Below are positions 1,179 through 11,415 of a stretch of DNA of 11,415 nt, piece by piece. A program made the position numbers and the translations under genes. The stretch's first letter is position 1. Every line of letters starts with the position of its first letter. Where the stretch lies: positions 1 through 11,415 of the forward strand of contig JANSXJ010000092.1 of the NCBI GenBank assembly GCA_024743015.1. The letters run 5' to 3'. The notes under the pieces are model-generated. The model saw only the letters and a list, made by a program, of their open reading frames with translations. It was not told the origin of the DNA and searched no databases. This stretch comes from Hyphomonas sp. Its GTDB lineage: Bacteria > Pseudomonadota > Alphaproteobacteria > Caulobacterales > Hyphomonadaceae.

Positions 1179-2405
1179 ATGGCAGATATAAGAAAACGAG
1201 AAGGTAAAAAAGGAACAACCTATCAAGTTCGCTTCCCAAGCAAATCCACAAAATCTGGATACGCGTTCAGAACATTTGATACCTTAAAAGAAGCCCGTGA
1301 TTTTGTTGAGAGCGGCCAGGCGCGCAAGGGCAGTGGTGCCCGCCACAGCGAAATCAGGACGGTCGAACAGGCCATCGAAAAGTGGCTTGATGTCTGTGAG
1401 AAGGAGGGACGGCGAGGACGTGATCCGGTGACGCCATTTACTCTAAAGACCTATAAGTACCGCGCCACGATCATGAAGGCCTATCCGTGGAGTAAGGAGT
1501 TGAATGAACTTGGTGCCCCAGATGTGGTGGAGTTTCGATCTTGGCTCATCAGGCATCATAGCCGTGATCTCGCGCGGAAAGTTTTATCATCACTCCATTC
1601 AATGATTCTGGAGATGGTCACCCGGGGAATTCTCGACCACGACATTGCGGTTGGCGTTTATATTGGGAAGAGTTCCCGCTACGAAGAGCCGGTCCAAATT
1701 CCATCCGAAAGGGATGTGCAGAGCTTGCTCGAAGCGGCAGATCGTCTGTCTAATTCCAAGAATGCGCAGATCAGTCGCAGTTGGGAGAGATATCGTCCCA
1801 TGCTTTATCTCGCTATCGACTCCGGCATGCGCCCACAAGAGTATATTGTGGTGCCGGGTTTCAGTCTCAGAGATAACGGGATAATGGTGGACCGTGCTCT
1901 TGAGCGCGGCTCGAACAAAATATCCGTAACCAAAACACCTGCGGGGCGGCGGTTTATTGACCTCAGCCCAGAGACATACGACATGGTGGCGCACTACCGT
2001 GACAAGCATGCCATCGAAAATGCTGATGATCTGATCTTCCCCACTGCCACCGGGGGGTGCCAGAGCATCGACAACTGGCGCAAACGTGGTTTCGGTGCCG
2101 CGTGTCGGGAGGCCGGACTGATCGACGAAATCCAGAAAGACGGAGAAGCTGTCGAGCGGCCACGATACCGGCCATATGATCTACGTCACTTCTATGCGTC
2201 CATGCTTATTGAACGACGTGTGAGCTTGAAGCGCGTGCAGACGATTATGGGGCACCGCGACATTCAGACAACGCTTAACGTCTACGGCCATGTGATCGAA
2301 CGTGTTGAGAGTGAAGCGGAGAAGCACACAGGGCTTGTGGCAAGCTTTTCCCAAAATCCATGTGGCAAATCTGTGGCGCAAGATCATCAATTAATTGATT
2401 TATAA
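1179..2405 (+). CDS. int: Tyrosine recombinase / integrase
   Basis: A 408-residue site-specific recombinase of the tyrosine class, which integrates and excises the element by cutting and rejoining att sites. The N-terminal part (about 1-55) looks like an arm-binding domain (basic, TTYQVRFPSKS), residues about 60-160 are the core-binding SAM-like domain, and 175-385 the catalytic domain. The catalytic set is visible: Arg218 in SGMRPQE, Lys252 in SVTKTPAGRR, Arg336 in YDLRHFYAS, His359 in IMGHRD and the nucleophile Tyr369 in TLNVYGH. The first His of the usual H-x-x-R is Tyr333 here, a common variant. Its stop codon lies 11 bases before the tRNA-Trp core, the usual position of an integrase that targets a tRNA 3' end. 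The first 100 bases are AT-rich and the rest resembles the neighbours. Family and intact active site are clear. Confidence 0.95.
   Translation: MADIRKREGKKGTTYQVRFPSKSTKSGYAFRTFDTLKEARDFVESGQARKGSGARHSEIRTVEQAIEKWLDVCEKEGRRGRDPVTPFTLKTYKYRATIMKAYPWSKELNELGAPDVVEFRSWLIRHHSRDLARKVLSSLHSMILEMVTRGILDHDIAVGVYIGKSSRYEEPVQIPSERDVQSLLEAADRLSNSKNAQISRSWERYRPMLYLAIDSGMRPQEYIVVPGFSLRDNGIMVDRALERGSNKISVTKTPAGRRFIDLSPETYDMVAHYRDKHAIENADDLIFPTATGGCQSIDNWRKRGFGAACREAGLIDEIQKDGEAVERPRYRPYDLRHFYASMLIERRVSLKRVQTIMGHRDIQTTLNVYGHVIERVESEAEKHTGLVASFSQNPCGKSVAQDHQLIDL
2334..2382 (+). repeat. Putative left arm-type integrase binding sites (TGTGGCAA repeats)
   Basis: Three copies of a TGTGGC-containing motif lie within the 3' end of the integrase gene: CTTGTGGCAAG (2334-2344), ATGTGGCAAA (2360-2369) and CTGTGGCGCAAG (2371-2382). 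The last two are 11 bases apart, one helical turn. Matching copies occur beyond the tRNA core with the same 11-base spacing. Tandem short direct repeats flanking a tRNA-derived core are typical arm-type sites bound by the N-terminal domain of tyrosine integrases. Binding is inferred. Confidence 0.6.
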
Positions 2406-2642: not shown

Positions 2643-4328
2643 CTATTCGGTCGTTGCGTCCGATTCAGATTCGATAAGTGGGGGGCGCTCTTGCAAGCGC
2701 CACCGACGTATCGCGTTTTCAACGTAGGCCGCGTCGGCTGCTTCTTCGGCCCAGCAAGCTGCGAACGGTACATCGGCACTTTGTGGCCGGTTTTCCTCTG
2801 GCAGATCATTAAACCGGAGCCGTACCGGCACCACCGAGCCCTCTCCAACCACAAGTGCCTCCTGGGTCCGGAGCGTCGGAAGAACGTTCACCAGGCTCCG
2901 CACCGAATCCGGAAGCGCCCGCTGCACAAAATTCTGATCTTGCTCATTGCTCATGCGTAAGGCGATGAGCGTGTTGCATTGCGACAGGATTGATTCGGCA
3001 AGCTCCGAGGGGCGCTGCGATATCAACCCGAGGCCAACACCGTATTTTCGGCCTTCCTTGGCAATCCGGGATAATGCCTGCTTGGTCGGCTGAAACGATG
3101 CATCGTCTCGCCGGGGAGCATAGCGGTGCGCTTCCTCGCATACCAATACGACCGGAACCTGGACGGGGCGCGGACTCCATACCGCGAAATCAAAGATCAT
3201 TCTGCACAGAACGGAAACCACGACATCCACAACATCCGATGGCACACCGGAAAGGTCGATGATTGACAGAGGTTTGTCCAACACCGGGATGCGGAGATAT
3301 TGCGCGACAATATCTTTAAGGTTGTCAGTTACGTCATCATCAGGCCGGATGAGAAATGAAAAGCGGCTGTCCTGCTGGAGCGTGTCGATCTTGTTTTTGA
3401 TCTTGAGATAAGAATCCTGCTTTGAAGCCTGAGTGGGCATGTTCGCATCAATGTGTTCGACCAGCTTGCCCAGCGTATAGGGAACGGGGGTGTCTACCGT
3501 TATCTTCTCACTGGCCACGCCCGGCAGTCCGAAGGCCCTGCGCGCAGAAAGCATCGCGTCTTTAAGGATATTGGTCTGACTTGTTGCAACATGCTCGGTC
3601 TTGCCGATGAACAGTTCGACGCTTTCCTCGAAATTCAGCAGCCAGTGCGGCAGATTGAGTGTTGTCGGATCGATGATTTCTGCGTCGCCCGGAAATGCAC
3701 GGCGGTACTCGTTGTGCGGATCAAGCAGGATCACATGCGCCTTCGGCGCGACGTCAAGGATTGACCGCAACAGCACCGTCACCGAACACGACTTACCGGA
3801 ACCGGTCGTGCCGAGCACGGCGAAATGCTTGCCCAGCAGGTCGTCCGTCATAAGGTAGACCGGCAAGGATGAGGCTTGCGAGAGGGTGCCGATATGGATG
3901 CTCGGCTTGTCCGGTCTGTGATAGATACGCGATAGCTCCTTGACGCTGGCCACAAAGATGCCCTGGCCAGGCAAGGGGTACGTGACAACGCCGCGCTGAA
4001 AATCGAACTCGCTCTCGCCAAGACCGGTTCGGAGCGCCTCCCCAAACAACTCGATCTCAAGCCACTTGGCATCAGACGCAGGTTCACGGGCAGGCGCCGT
4101 ACCGCTGCCACCGTCAAGTAGAGTCTCTGTCATACGAAGTGCGGTCACCACGCCGAACACCAGCTTGTCGCCGGCCTCGATCTTTACGATTGAACCTACC
4201 TGCCCGACCGTATAGCGGCGGCTCTTATAGGTCCGGTAGAGGTCTTCCACCGTTCCCTCAAGCGCGCCAATAACTTTGGAACCGGAGACTTCGACCACGC
4301 GGCCGATTTTCAGGATCGACTCGTTCAT
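2643..4328 (-). CDS. herA: HerA-type hexameric ATPase of the SIR2-HerA defence pair
   Basis: A 561-residue HerA/FtsK-like P-loop ATPase. Residues about 1-130 contain a beta-rich HAS-barrel-like domain (ILKIGRVVEVSGSKVIGAL). The Walker A motif GTTGSGKS is at 173-180, Walker B VVLVCEEAHRY at 393-403 with Glu398/Glu399, a sensor segment GLGLISQRPSEL at 432-443, and a likely arginine finger at Arg458 in NTLIALRM. HerA proteins form hexameric rings that pump DNA or act as scaffolds; in SIR2-HerA defence the ring assembles with SIR2. The ATG at 4328 overlaps the SIR2 stop as ATGA and has GGGAGAAG upstream, so I prefer it to an upstream in-frame start at 4373. It is the last gene of the operon. All ATPase motifs are intact. 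The defence role comes from the SIR2 neighbour. Confidence 0.9.
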   Translation of the reverse strand: MNESILKIGRVVEVSGSKVIGALEGTVEDLYRTYKSRRYTVGQVGSIVKIEAGDKLVFGVVTALRMTETLLDGGSGTAPAREPASDAKWLEIELFGEALRTGLGESEFDFQRGVVTYPLPGQGIFVASVKELSRIYHRPDKPSIHIGTLSQASSLPVYLMTDDLLGKHFAVLGTTGSGKSCSVTVLLRSILDVAPKAHVILLDPHNEYRRAFPGDAEIIDPTTLNLPHWLLNFEESVELFIGKTEHVATSQTNILKDAMLSARRAFGLPGVASEKITVDTPVPYTLGKLVEHIDANMPTQASKQDSYLKIKNKIDTLQQDSRFSFLIRPDDDVTDNLKDIVAQYLRIPVLDKPLSIIDLSGVPSDVVDVVVSVLCRMIFDFAVWSPRPVQVPVVLVCEEAHRYAPRRDDASFQPTKQALSRIAKEGRKYGVGLGLISQRPSELAESILSQCNTLIALRMSNEQDQNFVQRALPDSVRSLVNVLPTLRTQEALVVGEGSVVPVRLRFNDLPEENRPQSADVPFAACWAEEAADAAYVENAIRRWRLQERPPLIESESDATTE

Positions 4329-5404
4329 GGCGCTTCTCCCGCAATAAAATCTACAAGCTTTTCGAATTTCCAAAGCTCGGCGTTGAGAACGGCCTGTGCC
4401 GCGTCTTCGTCAAGAGCGTGTCCAATAAACCGTCCGGTATCACCGCTACCGATAAAAGCGTTGAAGCGGGAGTCGCAACGATCGCTAAATGCGCGGAGAC
4501 GCTCGTCTTGCTTGGTCCGGTCCGCCTCGGGTCCGATAAAGGAAATTACTGTGAGATTGCTGTTATTCGCGTTTACCGCATCACAGATCGCTTCGTTGAT
4601 ATGTTCGTCATTGAAACTGTAGCCGAGCACGATAAGGCAGTTATTGACGCCGGCAATGCGCAGCCGGTTGCGAAATCTGCCAATCAAGGTTTCGTATACG
4701 CCGTATTGCGTCTGAAGGTATTTTTGCTCTGAAGGGTAAACGACCACCGGTTCATCTGCCGCATCTTCATTGGCATTTCGGCCGCGCCGGACATGACCGC
4801 TGGCATCGCGGGTCCAATTGATCGATCCGTGAAGTTTGAAGATGCGGTACGAGATTTCCGCACTGCCTTCATCGAAGGTTTCTGCGTCAAACCACGCCCG
4901 GTTGGTGCCCCGAAACCCGTCTACGTAAGCGAACCGCAATTCATCCAAGCTCGCTTCTAAAAGCGTATCGTAATTCAGACTGAATATGTCGCGCGGTCCC
5001 CGGTTGCGCGGTCCGCGAAGCCGCTGCAAGAACCGGGCATGATGCGCGCTTGATTCCCAGTCATCGGCAACCTCGCTCACGATCTTTTTCTTTATCGCTG
5101 TCAACCAGCTATCAATCTCATCAATGGTTATGCTGTGGCCATCGCCGGTCGTAATGGTGCCAAGAATATCCCTATACCGAACGAGAAAATTGATGAGGTC
5201 TTCAATCGTCGCCGGCCGGTCGCCGCTCGGCTTGAGCCCTGTGAATTGCTGCAAGAGCTTCTCATCAACGCCATTCAGTACGTTTTCCGTGAGTTTGCCG
5301 ATCAAAGGCTTTCCGGCGCACATGCTGCATCCAGCGCCAAGAAGGAAGCACGTATCACTTCCTGTCAGCCACTCTGTAATTTGTTCTCGTACATCACCTG
5401 CCAT
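4325..5404 (-). CDS. SIR2-family NAD-binding defence protein (SIR2_2 type)
   Basis: A 359-residue protein of the SIR2-like group found in antiphage systems. The NAD-binding Rossmann signature LLGAGCS is at 21-27, the SIR2_2-type FSLNYDTLLE at 141-150 (Asn144, Asp146), the catalytic-histidine segment KLHGSINW at 190-197 (His192), and LGYSFNDEHIN at 260-270. In characterised SIR2-HerA and related systems such proteins hydrolyse NAD+ on infection and stop growth of the cell. The ATG at 5404 has a good ribosome binding site, GAAGGACGG, so this gene can start translation independently; it lies 39 bases after the methylase-nuclease gene and overlaps the HerA gene by four bases. There is no signal peptide or membrane segment. 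All key residues are present, so an active NADase is expected. Deacetylase function is unlikely from family and context. Confidence 0.9.
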   Translation of the reverse strand: MAGDVREQITEWLTGSDTCFLLGAGCSMCAGKPLIGKLTENVLNGVDEKLLQQFTGLKPSGDRPATIEDLINFLVRYRDILGTITTGDGHSITIDEIDSWLTAIKKKIVSEVADDWESSAHHARFLQRLRGPRNRGPRDIFSLNYDTLLEASLDELRFAYVDGFRGTNRAWFDAETFDEGSAEISYRIFKLHGSINWTRDASGHVRRGRNANEDAADEPVVVYPSEQKYLQTQYGVYETLIGRFRNRLRIAGVNNCLIVLGYSFNDEHINEAICDAVNANNSNLTVISFIGPEADRTKQDERLRAFSDRCDSRFNAFIGSGDTGRFIGHALDEDAAQAVLNAELWKFEKLVDFIAGEAP

Positions 5405-5443
5405 CGTTTTCCGTCCTTCGCAGCATAATCCTCTCGTGTCGCC

Positions 5444-8400
5444 TTAAGTCGGTATCGGCACGGACTGCACCGTCGCAGTGTCTTCCGGCGACAACCTGAA
5501 AACCTCATTCATCCGCTGGTCCATTTCAGCGCGCAAATCGTTCACTGCGCGCTCTTTTCGCGTTTTCTCATGCGGCGTCCGGGCGGCCGAGAACTCATCC
5601 ATCGCCGAAATCAGGCGCGTTGCCAGTGCCTCGATGGCGGCCTGCTCTGGCTCATCGGGAACCGGGACAGGGAGGTTCTCGATAAACTGCTTGCCATGTG
5701 AGTAGTAGCCGCCGCGAAATGCGCTCGTGTTCGTGCGTACGAATGCTTCGCTCAAAGGATGGTTTAGAACAGCAAGCAGGTAGAGCGTTGAAACGTCCGC
5801 GCCGTCTTTCGCGCGCACCATGTAATAGGGGCCGTTACCGCCGCCGGTAAAAAGCGTGTTGGTTTCGTCATAGGCGTATCGCGGCTCCACCGAGAGTACC
5901 GGTAGAATGATCTTCGGGCTGTCAAATTTGGTCAGGCTTTGAGAGCGTCCGTACTGATACCACTGGCGTTCGGCCGCCGGGCCGCCAACGATATTGCGCG
6001 CTTCCAGTTCTTCCCGCCGGGCATTCAGATAAGCCCAGCATCCCGGATAGTTTGCTGCCATCACATCGGGCTGGATCAGCCGCGCGCGAAGCTTGCCGGC
6101 GCCATTGGCGATAAGCTCATACGGGAAAATCATCCAGGCATTCGCATCAGGCCGGCCGTAAGCGTAAACCGTTACGTCGTGCAGGCAGGGACGCAGAATC
6201 GCGCGTTCAAGCTGCCAGTCCCGGTCATTCCACCGTAACGTAATACTGTCCGCGTCTGTAGCGTCCGGCCGAACAATGTAAATCTTGTCGGCACTGGTCT
6301 GCACGCCCACTTCAATGTCGGCCACAGCCGAAAGCTTCGCAGGAAACTCCGCCCGGATGCGCGCAAACAATGTTCGCACCTCTTCATCGGCAAATTCCCA
6401 CGGGTCCGCGTCAAGCTGGTTTGCCGGTATTGTGGTCACAAGGCCTTCCTGCCCATAGCGCCAGACTTCCAGAGGCCCGGCTTTTTCAACTCTCACCGTT
6501 TGGGAGCCTGCGCGGTTCAGAACCAGAATGCAGGTGTAATTGGACGTGCCCCGGCCAAAGACCTGTTTCACACCGAAATGCACGATCTCTTCGAGAAAGT
6601 TATCTTGAGCCAGCAGGCCGCGTAGCGCCCGCCCGGCGTGAATGGTCATGAATTTATGCGGTACGATGATCCCGATCCGTCCATCAGGTCGCACGAGAGA
6701 CAAGGAGCGCTCGATGAACAGGGCATATTTATCAAAATTGTCCTGCCGGGCCGTGGTGAACGGCGATCCATCACGCTTGTAATAGGCAACTTCGTCCGGC
6801 GAGAACGCCACCATATTTTGAATGCGGATATAGGGCGGATTGCCGACGATCACACTGAATCCGCCACCGGCGATTTCCGCCGGAAACTCGTCATCCCAGG
6901 TGAAGGGGTTGATTTTTTCGCGCAGCTCAGCCGGCATCGCGCCGCACGCAGCTTGCCACTCTGCTGCACTCACCAGCGAGTTGCCGCAGCGGATAATATC
7001 GCCGAGCGGCGGTAACGCCGGCCGGTTTTGTACCGCGACGAATTCCTTGAGCGCCGCCTCGTTCTCGTCTTCGATCAGTTTTAGCAGCAGGCTGAATTGC
7101 GCAACCTCGACAGCGTTCGGATCGATATCGACACCGCGCAAATGGGCCAGCAGGATGCGGCGCTTTTCTTCGAAAGTCAGTCGCCACAGCCCGGCGCCGG
7201 CGTCATAAATCCGCCGCCCCGTATGTTCCGCGCGGTCGTGGTCGAGATACCAGCTCAAATAGTGGCTGAGCAGATATTCATATGCGGAAAGCAGGAAGAT
7301 CCCGGACCCGCAGCACGTATCCGCAACAGTAAATCCGTCCAGCTCTGCCGGAGATTTTCCCGCAAGAGCCGGTCCGAGTGTCCGGTCTACAATAGCATCT
7401 GCAATGAAGCCCGGCGTCGGTACGACACCGCCGCTTTCCCGGACTTCAGGCTTGCTGATAATCTCGACAGCCCCGTCCCGGACGGTAATGACCTCGCCGA
7501 GAAATTGCTCGTAAATTTCCCCGAGCACTTCGGTCTCGACGACGGCAAAAGTGTAGGGGCTTTTCGGATAATACAGGTCGCTAATAATGCGCGCGAGCGT
7601 GGCATCGCTGATACGAACGCCGAGACGTTCATCATCCAGAAGCCGGAAGAGTCCGGAGTCGTAAAATTCATCGGCGCGCCGCAGGACCGCAAGTAGCGCG
7701 TCGAAAGTCGCTGCGCCATCAAGGTTCTTGAGCGTTTCATATTTTTCGATTTCGCGATCTTCGCAAATGCGCAAAAAAACGATCCGGGACAGAAAAAGCT
7801 GGACCGCATAGGTCAGCTCTTCGGCTGAGAGGCCCGGCGTGCCTGCATGAATGTCGATGGCGAGCCGTTCGCGCCAATCCCGCACCTGGGCGAGGAAGAA
7901 GTCATCGAATTGCTCGGCGCCGTGCCGCGTGGCGTCAATCGCAAAATGGCGGTCGAAGTCACCGGAATACACGGCTTCTCGCGAGAGCAGGGACCAAAGT
8001 TCATCGAACCGTCCGTCGAATTCCTCAAAGTCAATCAGAGCCAGCCGCGCGACATGCGCCTCCTCCGTTTCCGCCGGCACTGGCCGGCAATCATAGATCG
8101 CGAGCTGATGGAAATTTGTGACGACCGAAATCGGCAAGCTTGCTGAATATCCGTAGCGTCTTGTCTGGAATGCCGGATTGCGATCGCGATCAATTCGGAC
8201 GCTCGGTTTCTTTGCCTCGACGAACAGCTTGCGCTGACGCGCCAGGCGCAGTTCGTAGTCTGGCCTTTTCGATAGTCGTTCATCTCCCACTTCGACGGTC
8301 GCCTCTTCGACGACCTCGCGGAACGCAAGCGGATGGCCCGCCGCATTGTGAACGTCCCAGCCGAGTGCTTCCAGAAACGGCGTAATGAATTCCGTTCGTG

Positions 8401-8512
8401 CTTGTGTTTCGTTGTAGGTGGGGCGCAGGTGATCGGCCTCATTGCGTTTAAAACGCTGCACCAGATCGGCTACGCGCGCACGCGCTGCTTCCTTGTCCCC
8501 TTCGCCGTTCAT
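5444..8512 (-). CDS. Eco57I/type IIG-like restriction-modification fusion (nuclease + N6-adenine methylase)
   Basis: A 1022-residue multidomain protein. Residues about 35-150 carry a PD-(D/E)xK nuclease-like domain: TEFITPFLEALGWDV (40-54), RPDYEL (83-88) and FVEAKKP (97-103) give the Asp85, Glu99, Lys101 set. A helical linker follows to about 360. The gamma-class N6-adenine methylase core has motif I ADTCCGSGIFLL (397-408) and motif IV GNPPYIRI (557-564). The C-terminal part (about 720-1020), with YYSHGKQFIENLPVPVP (936-952), matches the TaqI-like target-recognition region. Together these predict a single-chain enzyme that recognises a DNA site, methylates it and cuts unmodified DNA. I take the ATG at 8512, which overlaps the previous stop as ATGA; an upstream in-frame start at 8596 would add 28 residues inside the preceding gene. 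The BREX methylase PglX is an alternative relative, but the N-terminal nuclease motif favours a type IIG-like enzyme. Confidence 0.88.
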   Translation of the reverse strand: MNGEGDKEAARARVADLVQRFKRNEADHLRPTYNETQARTEFITPFLEALGWDVHNAAGHPLAFREVVEEATVEVGDERLSKRPDYELRLARQRKLFVEAKKPSVRIDRDRNPAFQTRRYGYSASLPISVVTNFHQLAIYDCRPVPAETEEAHVARLALIDFEEFDGRFDELWSLLSREAVYSGDFDRHFAIDATRHGAEQFDDFFLAQVRDWRERLAIDIHAGTPGLSAEELTYAVQLFLSRIVFLRICEDREIEKYETLKNLDGAATFDALLAVLRRADEFYDSGLFRLLDDERLGVRISDATLARIISDLYYPKSPYTFAVVETEVLGEIYEQFLGEVITVRDGAVEIISKPEVRESGGVVPTPGFIADAIVDRTLGPALAGKSPAELDGFTVADTCCGSGIFLLSAYEYLLSHYLSWYLDHDRAEHTGRRIYDAGAGLWRLTFEEKRRILLAHLRGVDIDPNAVEVAQFSLLLKLIEDENEAALKEFVAVQNRPALPPLGDIIRCGNSLVSAAEWQAACGAMPAELREKINPFTWDDEFPAEIAGGGFSVIVGNPPYIRIQNMVAFSPDEVAYYKRDGSPFTTARQDNFDKYALFIERSLSLVRPDGRIGIIVPHKFMTIHAGRALRGLLAQDNFLEEIVHFGVKQVFGRGTSNYTCILVLNRAGSQTVRVEKAGPLEVWRYGQEGLVTTIPANQLDADPWEFADEEVRTLFARIRAEFPAKLSAVADIEVGVQTSADKIYIVRPDATDADSITLRWNDRDWQLERAILRPCLHDVTVYAYGRPDANAWMIFPYELIANGAGKLRARLIQPDVMAANYPGCWAYLNARREELEARNIVGGPAAERQWYQYGRSQSLTKFDSPKIILPVLSVEPRYAYDETNTLFTGGGNGPYYMVRAKDGADVSTLYLLAVLNHPLSEAFVRTNTSAFRGGYYSHGKQFIENLPVPVPDEPEQAAIEALATRLISAMDEFSAARTPHEKTRKERAVNDLRAEMDQRMNEVFRLSPEDTATVQSVPIPT

Positions 8513-10260
8513 GAAGCGATTGACCGTTTGCCGCGCCGGCGGCGGGCAAGCCGGCGATCCCGCATCTTCTCCCAGACATTGCGCAACATCCGGCAATCGC
8601 TGCGCGACAGACCCATCGTGCCCATCAGCACAAGCCGATCGTTCTCGGCCAGAACCTCATCAAGACGGCCATCGCGGACAAGCCGGTCGCAATCCTTCAA
8701 AGGCAGGGCGGACCCCAGCTCGGCCGGCATCATGAGCCGCTCGGCTTCAGTTGGCTCAAGTTCCAGGACGCCGCCGCCGTAGCTGCGTCCCTCGATTTCG
8801 GCAGAGGCAGCAGTCAGATATGTATAGGTATTGGCGATCACGCGCTGCGGGTCAGTCTTGCAGCGCATCCGGTGAATGGTGTCCGTCGAAGTTGCTTCGG
8901 CTGTGTTCATCACCACGCGCGGAAAATCATAAATCTGGCGGAACATGAAAGCGTCAGGAACCCAGACAGAAGGCACCGCATACCAGGGTTCGCGGATCGA
9001 GCATTTGTAGCCTTTGTGAACGTCGTCGTCTTCTCCGAGGCGGATATAGCTTTCAAGCAGCTTGCCCGGTTTTGAGCCGTTGATAGGCGCAAGGTGCAGC
9101 AGGTGGACCCGCTGGTCGTCTGCGGCAAGATTTTTCCAGTCGCGCTTGCCGACCCGTGCCCCCATCAGGTGGGCCGATCGGGAAATCAGCGGCATTGTGT
9201 GCTTATGCAGTCCGCGGGCTTCGATCTCGCTCTGACGTAATACGAAAAACTGGTTCTTGCCGGTAACGACACCGACATTCACCGAGGCATAAGTATTCAT
9301 TGGCGTCGCCACGCCAGATTCACGCAGCTCGCGCATAAATTCGATCTCGGCAGCGTTCAGGAAATATTTGAGCCACTTTTCGCTATCGTGACAGATCGTT
9401 TTTGGCGATGCACCCTTCAGTACGGCGGCGGGCGTTCGATTTACAATACTGGCGACGGAGTCGCTTTCCGTCAGAGTGACCTGACAAGGATTGCTTTCCG
9501 AAGGCGCTTTTCGCGCATCGTCTGCCAAAAGAAGCAATACTTCTTGTTCTGCCTTGTCGAAAAATAATTCATTACAGGCAATCAAATCGATCCGGCCAAA
9601 TCTGTCGGTTAAAAATGAACGCAGCTGCGCGGCATAACTGACCTGAAGCAGCTCAGCAGGCAGCACAAGTGCCATGCGCCCGCCGGGACGCAGGGCCGCC
9701 GCCGCCGCGACGACGAACGGAACCCAGATATTTGTCAGACGATTCGGGGACAAGCCCTGATCGTTCATGATCGCCATTGCGCGGCTGCGATGAGGCTCCG
9801 GGAAACTCTGATAGCGAATGAAAGGCGGATTGCCGATAGCCACATCAAAGAGTGGCCGGTCAGGGCGGCTCCACCATGCAAAGAAATCACTGGTTTCAAC
9901 GGCGTCCGCCGCCCGAAGTTTCAGTTGGCTCTTTAGCCGTTCACGGGCCTTGTCCGCCTCATCCGCCAGAATTTCGATGCCTTGTAAATGATCGGCCCGC
10001 GCCGGCCCTTTTGCGCCAAGGTGCCCAAGGCGCTCAGCCGCCGCGCTGAGGAATGCGCCGTCGCCACAACTTGGCTCAAGAACAAAATCATCGGCATCAC
10101 GAATGGCCCAGGCACAAAGCCACTGCGCTAATTCGTTAGAGGTGTAATAGCCACCCCTTAGTTTATCAGCGTCAAGTTCAGTGAACCGGCCGCTATTCGT
10201 ACGGGACGGGCCTGTGCTTTGAGAGTTGTCATGAAGAGTGGTTGCTGTAACTTCGGTCAT
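8509..10260 (-). CDS. N6-adenine DNA methyltransferase, class I SAM-dependent
   Basis: A 583-residue gamma-type N6-adenine DNA methyltransferase. Residues 36-49 (GGYYTSNELAQWLC) fit motif X, residues 60-71 (VLEPSCGDGAFL) are the SAM-binding motif I, and 143-150 (GNPPFIRY) the catalytic NPPF motif IV. Residues about 320-520 probably form the target-recognition domain, and the tail is strongly basic (RLARRRRGKR, 570-579). There is no nuclease motif, so it should be a modification enzyme only. Its ATG at 10260 overlaps the regulator stop as ATGA, and its own stop overlaps the start of the nuclease-methylase fusion. Two adenine methylases in a row could modify the two strands of an asymmetric site, or have different targets. 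It is distinct in sequence from the methylase domain of its neighbour. Confidence 0.9.
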   Translation of the reverse strand: MTEVTATTLHDNSQSTGPSRTNSGRFTELDADKLRGGYYTSNELAQWLCAWAIRDADDFVLEPSCGDGAFLSAAAERLGHLGAKGPARADHLQGIEILADEADKARERLKSQLKLRAADAVETSDFFAWWSRPDRPLFDVAIGNPPFIRYQSFPEPHRSRAMAIMNDQGLSPNRLTNIWVPFVVAAAAALRPGGRMALVLPAELLQVSYAAQLRSFLTDRFGRIDLIACNELFFDKAEQEVLLLLADDARKAPSESNPCQVTLTESDSVASIVNRTPAAVLKGASPKTICHDSEKWLKYFLNAAEIEFMRELRESGVATPMNTYASVNVGVVTGKNQFFVLRQSEIEARGLHKHTMPLISRSAHLMGARVGKRDWKNLAADDQRVHLLHLAPINGSKPGKLLESYIRLGEDDDVHKGYKCSIREPWYAVPSVWVPDAFMFRQIYDFPRVVMNTAEATSTDTIHRMRCKTDPQRVIANTYTYLTAASAEIEGRSYGGGVLELEPTEAERLMMPAELGSALPLKDCDRLVRDGRLDEVLAENDRLVLMGTMGLSRSDCRMLRNVWEKMRDRRLARRRRGKRSIAS

Positions 10261-10454
10261 CCCGGACGCCTCACATGGAAGAGTGGTTGTTCATCGTGAA
10301 GCAGGCGTTCAATCGCCTCGCGTACGACCCAGGCAACGGAGACCTTATTCTCATTTGCGATCTCCAGCAGCGCTGCATGCTGCTCGGGCGACAGGCTGAC
10401 GGAAAGCCGGTGAGGGGACTTCTCAGAATTTTTTTTGCGTGCTGATCGTGGCAT
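10257..10454 (-). CDS. Ribbon-helix-helix transcriptional regulator, first gene of the defence operon
   Basis: A 65-residue protein with a basic N-terminus, a short strand HRLSVSLSPE (about 15-24) and two helices (QHAALLEIANENK, VSVAWVVREAIERLL to residue 52). This is the ribbon-helix-helix fold of the CopG/Arc group, whose dimers insert the strand pair into the DNA major groove. I start it at the ATG at 10454, which has AAGGA nine bases upstream; the frame is open to 10547, but that extension would run through the operator. It overlaps the methyltransferase start by ATGA. Three repeated 10-bp operator modules just upstream suggest autorepression, keeping the restriction and SIR2 genes low until the methylases act, as control proteins do in restriction systems. 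No toxin gene adjoins it, so it is not an ordinary antitoxin. Confidence 0.82.
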   Translation of the reverse strand: MPRSARKKNSEKSPHRLSVSLSPEQHAALLEIANENKVSVAWVVREAIERLLHDEQPLFHVRRPG

Positions 10455-10470
10455 GATCTCGAATCCTTGT

Positions 10471-10500
10471 TTGCACCACCTTACACCACCGTGGTGCAAA
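10471..10500. promoter_or_regulatory. Three-module operator of the ribbon-helix-helix regulator
   Basis: Three consecutive 10-bp modules are visible: TTGCACCACC (10471-10480), TTACACCACC (10481-10490, direct) and GTGGTGCAAA (10491-10500, inverted). The outer modules form the inverted pair TTGCACCAC/GTGGTGCAA, and the inner two form CACCAC-C-GTGGTG. The array begins 17 bases upstream of the regulator ATG. Repeats spaced by one helical turn fit cooperative binding of ribbon-helix-helix dimers. Autorepression is inferred. Confidence 0.65.
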
Positions 10501-10966: not shown

Positions 10967-11415
10967 ATGAAATCAGATATCTATCAGCGCATAACCGATC
11001 AGATTGTGGCCGATCTGGAACGCGGTGTTCGCCCTTGGCTTAAGCCGTGGAATGCGGAGCACGCCGCCGGGCGGATTACCCGGCCCTTAAGGGCGGGCGG
11101 CCAGCCCTACAACGGAATCAACGTCATCATGCTGTGGTCGGCAGCGATGGCAAGCGGCTTTGCCGCGCCCATTTGGATGACCTTTCGGCAGGCCAAAGAG
11201 CTTGGCGGACATGTCCGCAAGGGCGAGAAGGGCAGTCTCGTTGTCTATGCGAACACCATCACCAAGACCGAGGAAAACGAGCGCACAGGCGAAGAAGAAG
11301 AGCGGAACATCCCGTTCATGAAGGGATACACCGTCTTTAATGTGGAGCAGATCGACGGCTTGCCCGCGCATTTCTATGCGCCCGCGCAAGCGCCCCTTGA
11401 TCCCGTGCAGCGGAA
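10967..11415 (+). CDS. ardC: ArdC-family antirestriction protein, N-terminal part cut by window edge
   Basis: The first 149 codons are visible and the frame is open to the right edge. The protein begins MKSDIYQRITDQIVADLERG, followed by the ArdC N-terminal (DUF1738) signatures RPWLKPW (about 22-28), YNGINVIMLW (48-57), WMTFRQAKELGG (70-81), VRKGEKGSLVVYA (83-95) and VFNVEQIDGLP (122-132). ArdC proteins bind single-stranded DNA and protect incoming plasmid or transposon DNA from restriction in the recipient; a zinc-metallopeptidase-like C-terminal part, if present, lies outside the window. The ATG at 10967 has a perfect AGGAGGA site six bases upstream. The gene is divergent from the defence operon and preceded by a hairpin leader. 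It is typical of transfer modules of conjugative elements, which supports the mobile-element reading. Confidence 0.93.
   Translation, partial: MKSDIYQRITDQIVADLERGVRPWLKPWNAEHAAGRITRPLRAGGQPYNGINVIMLWSAAMASGFAAPIWMTFRQAKELGGHVRKGEKGSLVVYANTITKTEENERTGEEEERNIPFMKGYTVFNVEQIDGLPAHFYAPAQAPLDPVQR

Follow-up and report, generated by a model that had tools for sequence, protein, structure and literature searches.

Five genes on the minus strand of a Hyphomonas sp. contig (JANSXJ010000092.1, assembly GCA_024743015.1) combine a restriction-modification (R-M) cassette with a SIR2-HerA gene pair, and the same gene order is found in distant bacteria, so that the operon looks like a two-layer phage defence. 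With modest confidence, we favour the reading that SIR2-HerA, added to an Eco57I-type R-M cassette at its 3' end, is a second layer of defence separable from the first. The window, i.e. the whole stretch of 11,415 nucleotides (nt) that was analysed, carries the following features of this operon (aa, amino acids; RHH, ribbon-helix-helix; MTase, methyltransferase):

10472-10496, minus strand: probable RHH operator, CACCA then TGGTGTA-N3-TGGTGCA, 17 nt ahead of the RHH start.
10257-10454, minus strand: RHH regulator, 65 aa (Pfam RHH_1 PF01402, E 7e-6, scored from a longer frame; no PADLOC match).
8509-10260, minus strand: separate Eco57I-type N6-adenine MTase, 583 aa (PF22837 M_Eco57I_C, E 1e-31, and Eco57I; PADLOC MTase_II, 574 bits).
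5444-8512, minus strand: type IIG (Eco57I-like) nuclease-methylase-specificity fusion, 1022 aa (HSDR_N, Eco57I and TaqI_C; PADLOC REase_MTase_IIG, 918 bits).
4325-5404, minus strand: SIR2_2 NADase-like protein, 359 aa (PF13289, E 3e-13; PADLOC SIR2, 174 bits).
2643-4328, minus strand: HerA/FtsK-type ATPase, 561 aa (DUF87/HerA PF01935, E 3e-47; PADLOC HerA PDLC04105, 441 bits).

Read in the direction of transcription, from 10454 to 2643, the genes stand in the order RHH, methylase, IIG, SIR2 and HerA. ATGA overlaps join them at three of the four junctions (RHH/methylase, methylase/IIG and SIR2/HerA), the 39-nt gap between IIG and SIR2 being the sole junction without overlap. This description had been given by an initial annotation made from the DNA letters, and its genes, strand, order, coordinates and overlaps were all confirmed. 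The arrangement supports the view that the five genes form one operon-like unit, in which R-M genes are joined to SIR2-HerA.

Judging by their domains and motifs, the RHH, methylase and IIG genes are a complete Eco57I-type R-M cassette. The separate methylase carries motif I (EPSCGDGAF) at position 62 and NPPF at 144. The fusion carries a PD-(D/E)XK nuclease (D85/E99/K101), motif I at 398, NPPY at 558 and a TaqI_C-like specificity domain; its P84-D85...E99-A-K101 signature is invariant across seven aligned rows, window included, and its methylase part resembles solved adenine methylases in a sequence match against a structure database. Eco57I-type systems recognize a defined site and cleave at a distance. 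Like them, the window has a nuclease, a gamma-type N6-adenine methylase and a specificity domain in one chain, together with one separate M.Eco57I-like methylase; unlike them, it has an RHH gene in front and SIR2-HerA behind. Eco57I itself is accompanied by one MTase (PMC4081073).

The RHH gene is the first of the cassette in all nine R-M loci compared. TGGTGTA-N3-TGGTGCA lies within 30 nt of its start in all nine. The match is exact in seven, L085 having one mismatch and L087 two, and all but L083 and L086 (seven of nine) have CACCA immediately ahead of it. The exact sequence occurs once in the genome of the window, and 0.01 occurrences with at most one mismatch are expected in shuffles of the window. 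By analogy with RHH repressors encoded ahead of toxin-antitoxin genes (PMC3874152), this sequence is probably the operator of the RHH protein, and the latter is probably the autorepressor of the operon.

The SIR2 and HerA genes are adjacent with a 4-nt overlap. The closest solved structures are 8w9l for SIR2 (E 3e-35 by profile) and 8wiv for HerA (E 1e-78), and the best solved matches of the two proteins are chains that share entries, for example 8wld and 8woc. All 23 aligned SIR2 rows, the window among them, have N144 and H192; HerA has a Walker A motif, GTTGSGKS, at 173-180, with K179 inside, and a Walker B motif, CEEA. The catalytic Asn and His of SIR2 and both Walker motifs of HerA, by which Nezha (SIR2-HerA) pairs are recognized, are intact. 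The residues singled out by the initial annotation (SIR2 N144/H192, HerA K179, nuclease D85/K101, NPPF 144 and NPPY 558) are indeed all present. In the Nezha system, a SIR2 12-mer assembles with a HerA 6-mer, and NAD+ is lost on phage infection. The window pair resembles it by its overlapping adjacent genes, its motifs and the solved pair as best match, and differs by its place at the 3' end of an R-M operon and by scores below the NCBIfam antiphage equivalog cut-offs (SIR2 79 bits for a cut-off of 500, HerA 314 for 850), which place it outside that curated subfamily. In published work, SIR2-HerA pairs deplete NAD+ and no longer protect once SIR2 is mutated or herA deleted (PMC11559045).

Genome contigs were scanned with a SIR2 alignment of 23 rows, taken from 120 homologues among the matches listed (of 2764 found), and the best 80 of 386 relatives were analysed. 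The order RHH-methylase-IIG-SIR2-HerA was found in three further genomes, Pelagerythrobacter marinus (L003), a metagenome-assembled genome of Competibacteraceae (L005) and Thalassospira lucentensis (L007), in which the gap before SIR2 is 29, 34 and 33 nt, respectively. Proteins of the five genes are 66-94% identical among the loci compared, and all five genes give the same kinship, the window with L003 and L005 with L007. Of 15 comparisons, 10 allowed the ratio of nonsynonymous to synonymous substitutions (dN/dS) to be computed, with values of 0.04-0.14; the other five were saturated, and several of the 10 have a dS above 1, which makes these values rough. Where computable, they indicate purifying selection on the five-gene operon. 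What the initial annotation had proposed as a single composite system stands as an operon-like unit in the window, L003, L005 and L007, and falls as a fixed five-gene system: the union of R-M and SIR2-HerA is real and conserved, its exact five-gene form is rare and its halves also occur separately.

Within the subfamily of the window, defined by a SIR2 identity of at least 45% (15 loci, L003-L017), an R-M or BREX (bacteriophage exclusion) gene lies within 4 kb and on the same strand in seven loci, and in six of these the pair is directly behind its partner. The partner varies: IIG in L003, L005 and L007, a type III Res in L013 (1250 bits), the BREX protein PglX in L015 (1471 bits), a PglX tail in L016 (292 bits) and, 3' of HerA, a methylase-IIG pair in L006. 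Such a gene is likewise found at up to 4 kb in 15 of the 65 more distant loci (L018-L082), and in 14 of the 15 it is of type I; in L020, where gene identities were checked, the order is HsdR-HsdM-HsdS-SIR2-HerA. A same-strand open reading frame (ORF) of at least 120 aa ends at most 150 nt from SIR2 in 38 of these 65 loci, and eight of the 38 are HsdS. Another five of the 38 are PF09903 DUF2130, a recurrent neighbour of distant pairs.

Over the 80 loci, genes matching the R-M/BREX seeds lie near SIR2-HerA in 22, or in 17 without the seed loci, the seeds coming mostly from five of these 80 loci, so that other R-M types could be missed. A quick HerA tree was built from 78 of 81 rows, L010, L021 and L069 being excluded for their short matches. 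R-M linkage is found there in 19 rows of the 34-row group that includes the window and in five of the other 44 (Fisher 4e-5); the 19 include two vestiges and L006, without which 16 of 34 rows are linked (Fisher 7e-4), and both Fisher values are descriptive, since related rows are not independent and the tree tool warned of long branches meeting, with one join touching the 34-row group. As a tentative proposal, one SIR2-HerA clade might be a portable effector for DNA-modification immunity. It would join type I, type IIG, type III and BREX/PglX systems on their own strand, mostly as the genes that come next, exchange partners over evolution and contribute an abortive layer that depletes NAD+, with a trigger that depends on the failure or the action of the modification system.

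The union could also reflect two independent defence systems that were joined in a mobile defence island and share a transcript by accident. Each module does occur alone, the genes for a tyrosine integrase and for the N-terminal part of ArdC on the window contig make the setting of the operon look mobile, and in an island of Vibrio cholerae Nezha has an endonuclease and a type II R-M system nearby (PMC11559045). This explanation is unlikely, however, as all 49 nearby R-M/BREX genes are on the SIR2-HerA strand and none on the opposite one (22 of 22 loci), short gaps are conserved across proteins that are 66-94% identical and partners swap at the same position within the subfamily. Such strict linkage in strand and position suggests that expression together with the modification system matters.

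Two subfamily loci appear to have lost their partner and kept the pair. L004 is placed inside the IIG group of the HerA tree. Upstream of its SIR2 gene lies a 41-nt stretch that resembles, nearly collinearly, the 3' end of the IIG gene of L005 (score 37, for a maximum of 30 in 300 shuffles); compared with L007, L003 and the window, the same stretch does not rise above shuffles, and tblastn of the matching peptide gives E values of 2.2 and 8.2. This short stretch is likely a vestige of a IIG gene. In L014, about 155 nt remain of a PglX gene, with a frameshift (score 118, shuffle maximum 31). This locus is a mosaic, as shown by the unequal divergence of its genes from those of L016 (DNA identity of 86% for SIR2 and 99% for HerA). 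SIR2 and HerA are full length in both L004 and L014, with their motifs kept. No partner vestige above shuffles was found upstream of SIR2 in L006, L008, L010, L011, L012 and L017. The two sequence remnants support the idea that SIR2-HerA outlives its partner, as would be expected of a separable layer.

This bears directly on whether the pair might act as a PrrC-like restrained toxin, held inactive by the R-M enzymes or by self-methylation and freed by phage anti-restriction or by unmodified DNA. Such restraint would agree with the hypothesis of coupled immunity and suicide, in which Sir2 enzymes are linked to type I R-M and PrrC interacts with PrrI (PMC3506569), and with the position of the pair directly behind an R-M gene in many loci. 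Yet L004, with its IIG vestige, and L014, with its frameshifted PglX vestige, retain a full-length pair with intact motifs, which argues against methylation or R-M proteins being required to quiet SIR2-HerA, unless another methylase stands in (other methylases were not looked for in those genomes); four further subfamily loci (L008, L010, L012 and L017) have no R-M gene found. A restrained toxin is therefore quite improbable. The suggestion of the initial annotation that SIR2-HerA senses unmodified DNA, which is covered by this scheme, is likewise not favoured, and the other half of its idea, a back-up for restriction, fits best.

It is possible, if doubtful, that the trigger is a DNA end: cleavage by the IIG enzyme, or its stalling, would give ends or fragments on which HerA loads, switching SIR2 on, so that restriction would be the sensor and NAD+ loss the effector. 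The pair is tightly coupled behind nuclease-bearing genes, namely IIG (L003, L005, L007), type III Res (L013) and type I operons (for example L020, L022 and L031), and the activation of Sir2-HerA is given as 'Unclear' in the table of a 2025 review (PMC12198126). The full-length pairs that L004 and L014 retain without a partner speak against this trigger, as does the nature of the gene directly ahead of SIR2 in L015 and L016, which is the BREX methylase PglX and no restriction enzyme. The latter point is weakened by an SbcD-like phosphoesterase gene and an SMC-like AAA gene located 3' of HerA in L015, by which a nuclease is possible there. At L015:804-14801, BREX type 3-like BrxF and BrxC, an AlbA_2/HATPase protein and PglXI precede SIR2-HerA; the genes that were checked include no PglZ, and the contig stretch stops after the SMC-like gene. 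In this locus, SIR2-HerA may stand in for a BREX effector.

The simplest reading remains that SIR2-HerA is a second layer, expressed together with the Eco57I-type cassette ahead of it and answering to a trigger of its own. The likely working would be as follows. The five genes would be transcribed together, and the RHH protein would repress its own promoter. The two methylases would mark the host genome, and the IIG enzyme would cut incoming DNA that lacks the mark. A phage that escapes restriction would then meet the SIR2-HerA complex, in which HerA would gate the NADase activity of SIR2, and the resulting loss of NAD+ would terminate phage production.

Several results weigh against a second layer of this kind. 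Among the genomes examined, only four (window, L003, L005 and L007) have the exact five-gene set. At strict thresholds, neither clade was met beyond the window's own genome: SIR2 (E 1e-40) has no member in 397 other genomes of the order or in 384 others of the class, and IIG (E 1e-100) has none in the 384 of the class. A looser search of the order gives IIG matches in 51 of 398 genomes, own included, the best other covering about 60% of the protein at 41% identity. With both clades confined to the window's own genome at the strict thresholds, the recurrence of the order in L003, L005 and L007 is more than chance. Despite 10 kb of upstream sequence, no R-M gene was found in L008, L010, L012 and L017, L010 ending inside HerA. 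PADLOC (E 1e-5) recognized no R-M family among 38 hand-picked flanking ORFs of nine subfamily loci (L004, L006, L008-L012, L014 and L017); the upstream sequence is too short to inform in L009 (49 nt) and L011 (673 nt). The order is reversed in L006 (8959-14066), where SIR2-HerA comes first and is followed, about 275 nt on, by a methylase gene and the start of a IIG gene, without RHH. The L015 genes 3' of HerA belong to this list as well. Finally, a promoter scan gave no minus-strand promoter across the operon region, including ahead of RHH; being blank even there, the scan is of no help on co-transcription.

Plasmids add to these points. Among 72,556 plasmid records, 12 encode both the IIG protein, with an identity of 60-80%, and the methylase. 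Five lineages were compared: Ancylobacter, Xanthomonas citri (one of eight records), Mesorhizobium, Rhizobium and Neorhizobium. RHH-methylase-IIG with overlapping genes is present on plasmids, and tblastn of stretches of 13-19 kb found neither SIR2 nor HerA beside the trio in any of the five; the annotation of four lineages agrees, with no SIR2/HerA after the trio, the Rhizobium record being unannotated. All plasmid matches of HerA and of SIR2 are below 60% identity, the best-ranked rows among the matches listed reaching 40.5% for HerA (10 of 651 records) and 32.5% for SIR2 (40 of 249 records). The initial annotation held that finding relatives of the two halves usually apart would speak against a joint system. 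This is partly the case, with the trio alone in all five plasmid lineages and the pair without R-M in L008, L010, L012 and L017. The methylase of L006 is 63% identical to that of the window and those of the plasmids 62-66%, so that L006 is no closer.

Concerning other known systems, the window proteins were rejected as BREX members (PglX with BrxC and PglZ), their PglX-family scores being 71 and 70 bits for cut-offs of 500 and 400; neither BrxC nor PglZ is among the matches listed for the five proteins (for three of them, the best 25 PADLOC families). MADS (methylation-associated defence system) pairs a methylase with a HerA-like protein. The likeness to it is weak (PADLOC mad2 61 and 44 bits, mad8 79 bits), and membership was rejected, NCBIfam MADS2 giving 36.4 and 28.6 bits for a cut-off of 720. 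HerA/FtsK ATPases were described in 2024 and 2026 as recruited to modification-linked and BREX-like defence (PMC10853773, PMC12839542). The window shares with BREX-Related Capture (BRC) systems a HerA/FtsK ATPase in modification-linked defence, but the BRC set of PglZ, DUF6079, DUF4007, STAND and HerA was not recognized in the window, and the words 'sirtuin' and 'NADase' are absent from the main text of the BRC paper (PMC12839542).

A link between Sir2 genes and type I R-M systems was pointed out in 2012 (PMC3506569). The loci described here differ from such immunity-suicide loci in that a whole SIR2-HerA pair is involved and that type IIG, type III and BREX PglX partners are found within one subfamily. 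They offer a concrete case, with several R-M types, for the older proposal of coupled immunity and cell-suicide modules (PMC3506569). Among the papers that searches of the open-licence PMC literature listed, none was recognized as describing the five-gene set or the partner-swapping clade, and PMC7251935 holds nothing on the union of R-M and SIR2-HerA. With R-M swapped or lost in sister loci, an operon that naturally joins the pair to a two-methylase R-M system makes it testable whether NAD+ loss is controlled by restriction, by modification state or by neither.

In viral contigs, the SIR2 alignment found seven distant relatives (25-30% identity) and the IIG alignment no match; 25 phage records match the IIG protein, none spanning 80% of the query. 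Around the operon, a tyrosine integrase gene (1179-2405, plus strand) is convergent with it and is preceded by two small unnamed ORFs (585-854 and 861-1097). At the other end, the ArdC anti-restriction N-terminal domain (10967-11413), on the strand opposite to the R-M operon, is interrupted by the contig end. The flanks of the window have nothing in common with those of its five-gene relatives (tblastx, E 1e-5). On the Lactobacillus kefiranofaciens plasmid NC_015603.1, a SIR2 relative (29%, 20188-21057) lies about 10 kb from a IIG relative (30%, 31522-34323). The genome of the window carries a second, distant SIR2-HerA pair (L002, G000:C28:10994-11467), with identities of 31% for SIR2 and 32% for HerA.

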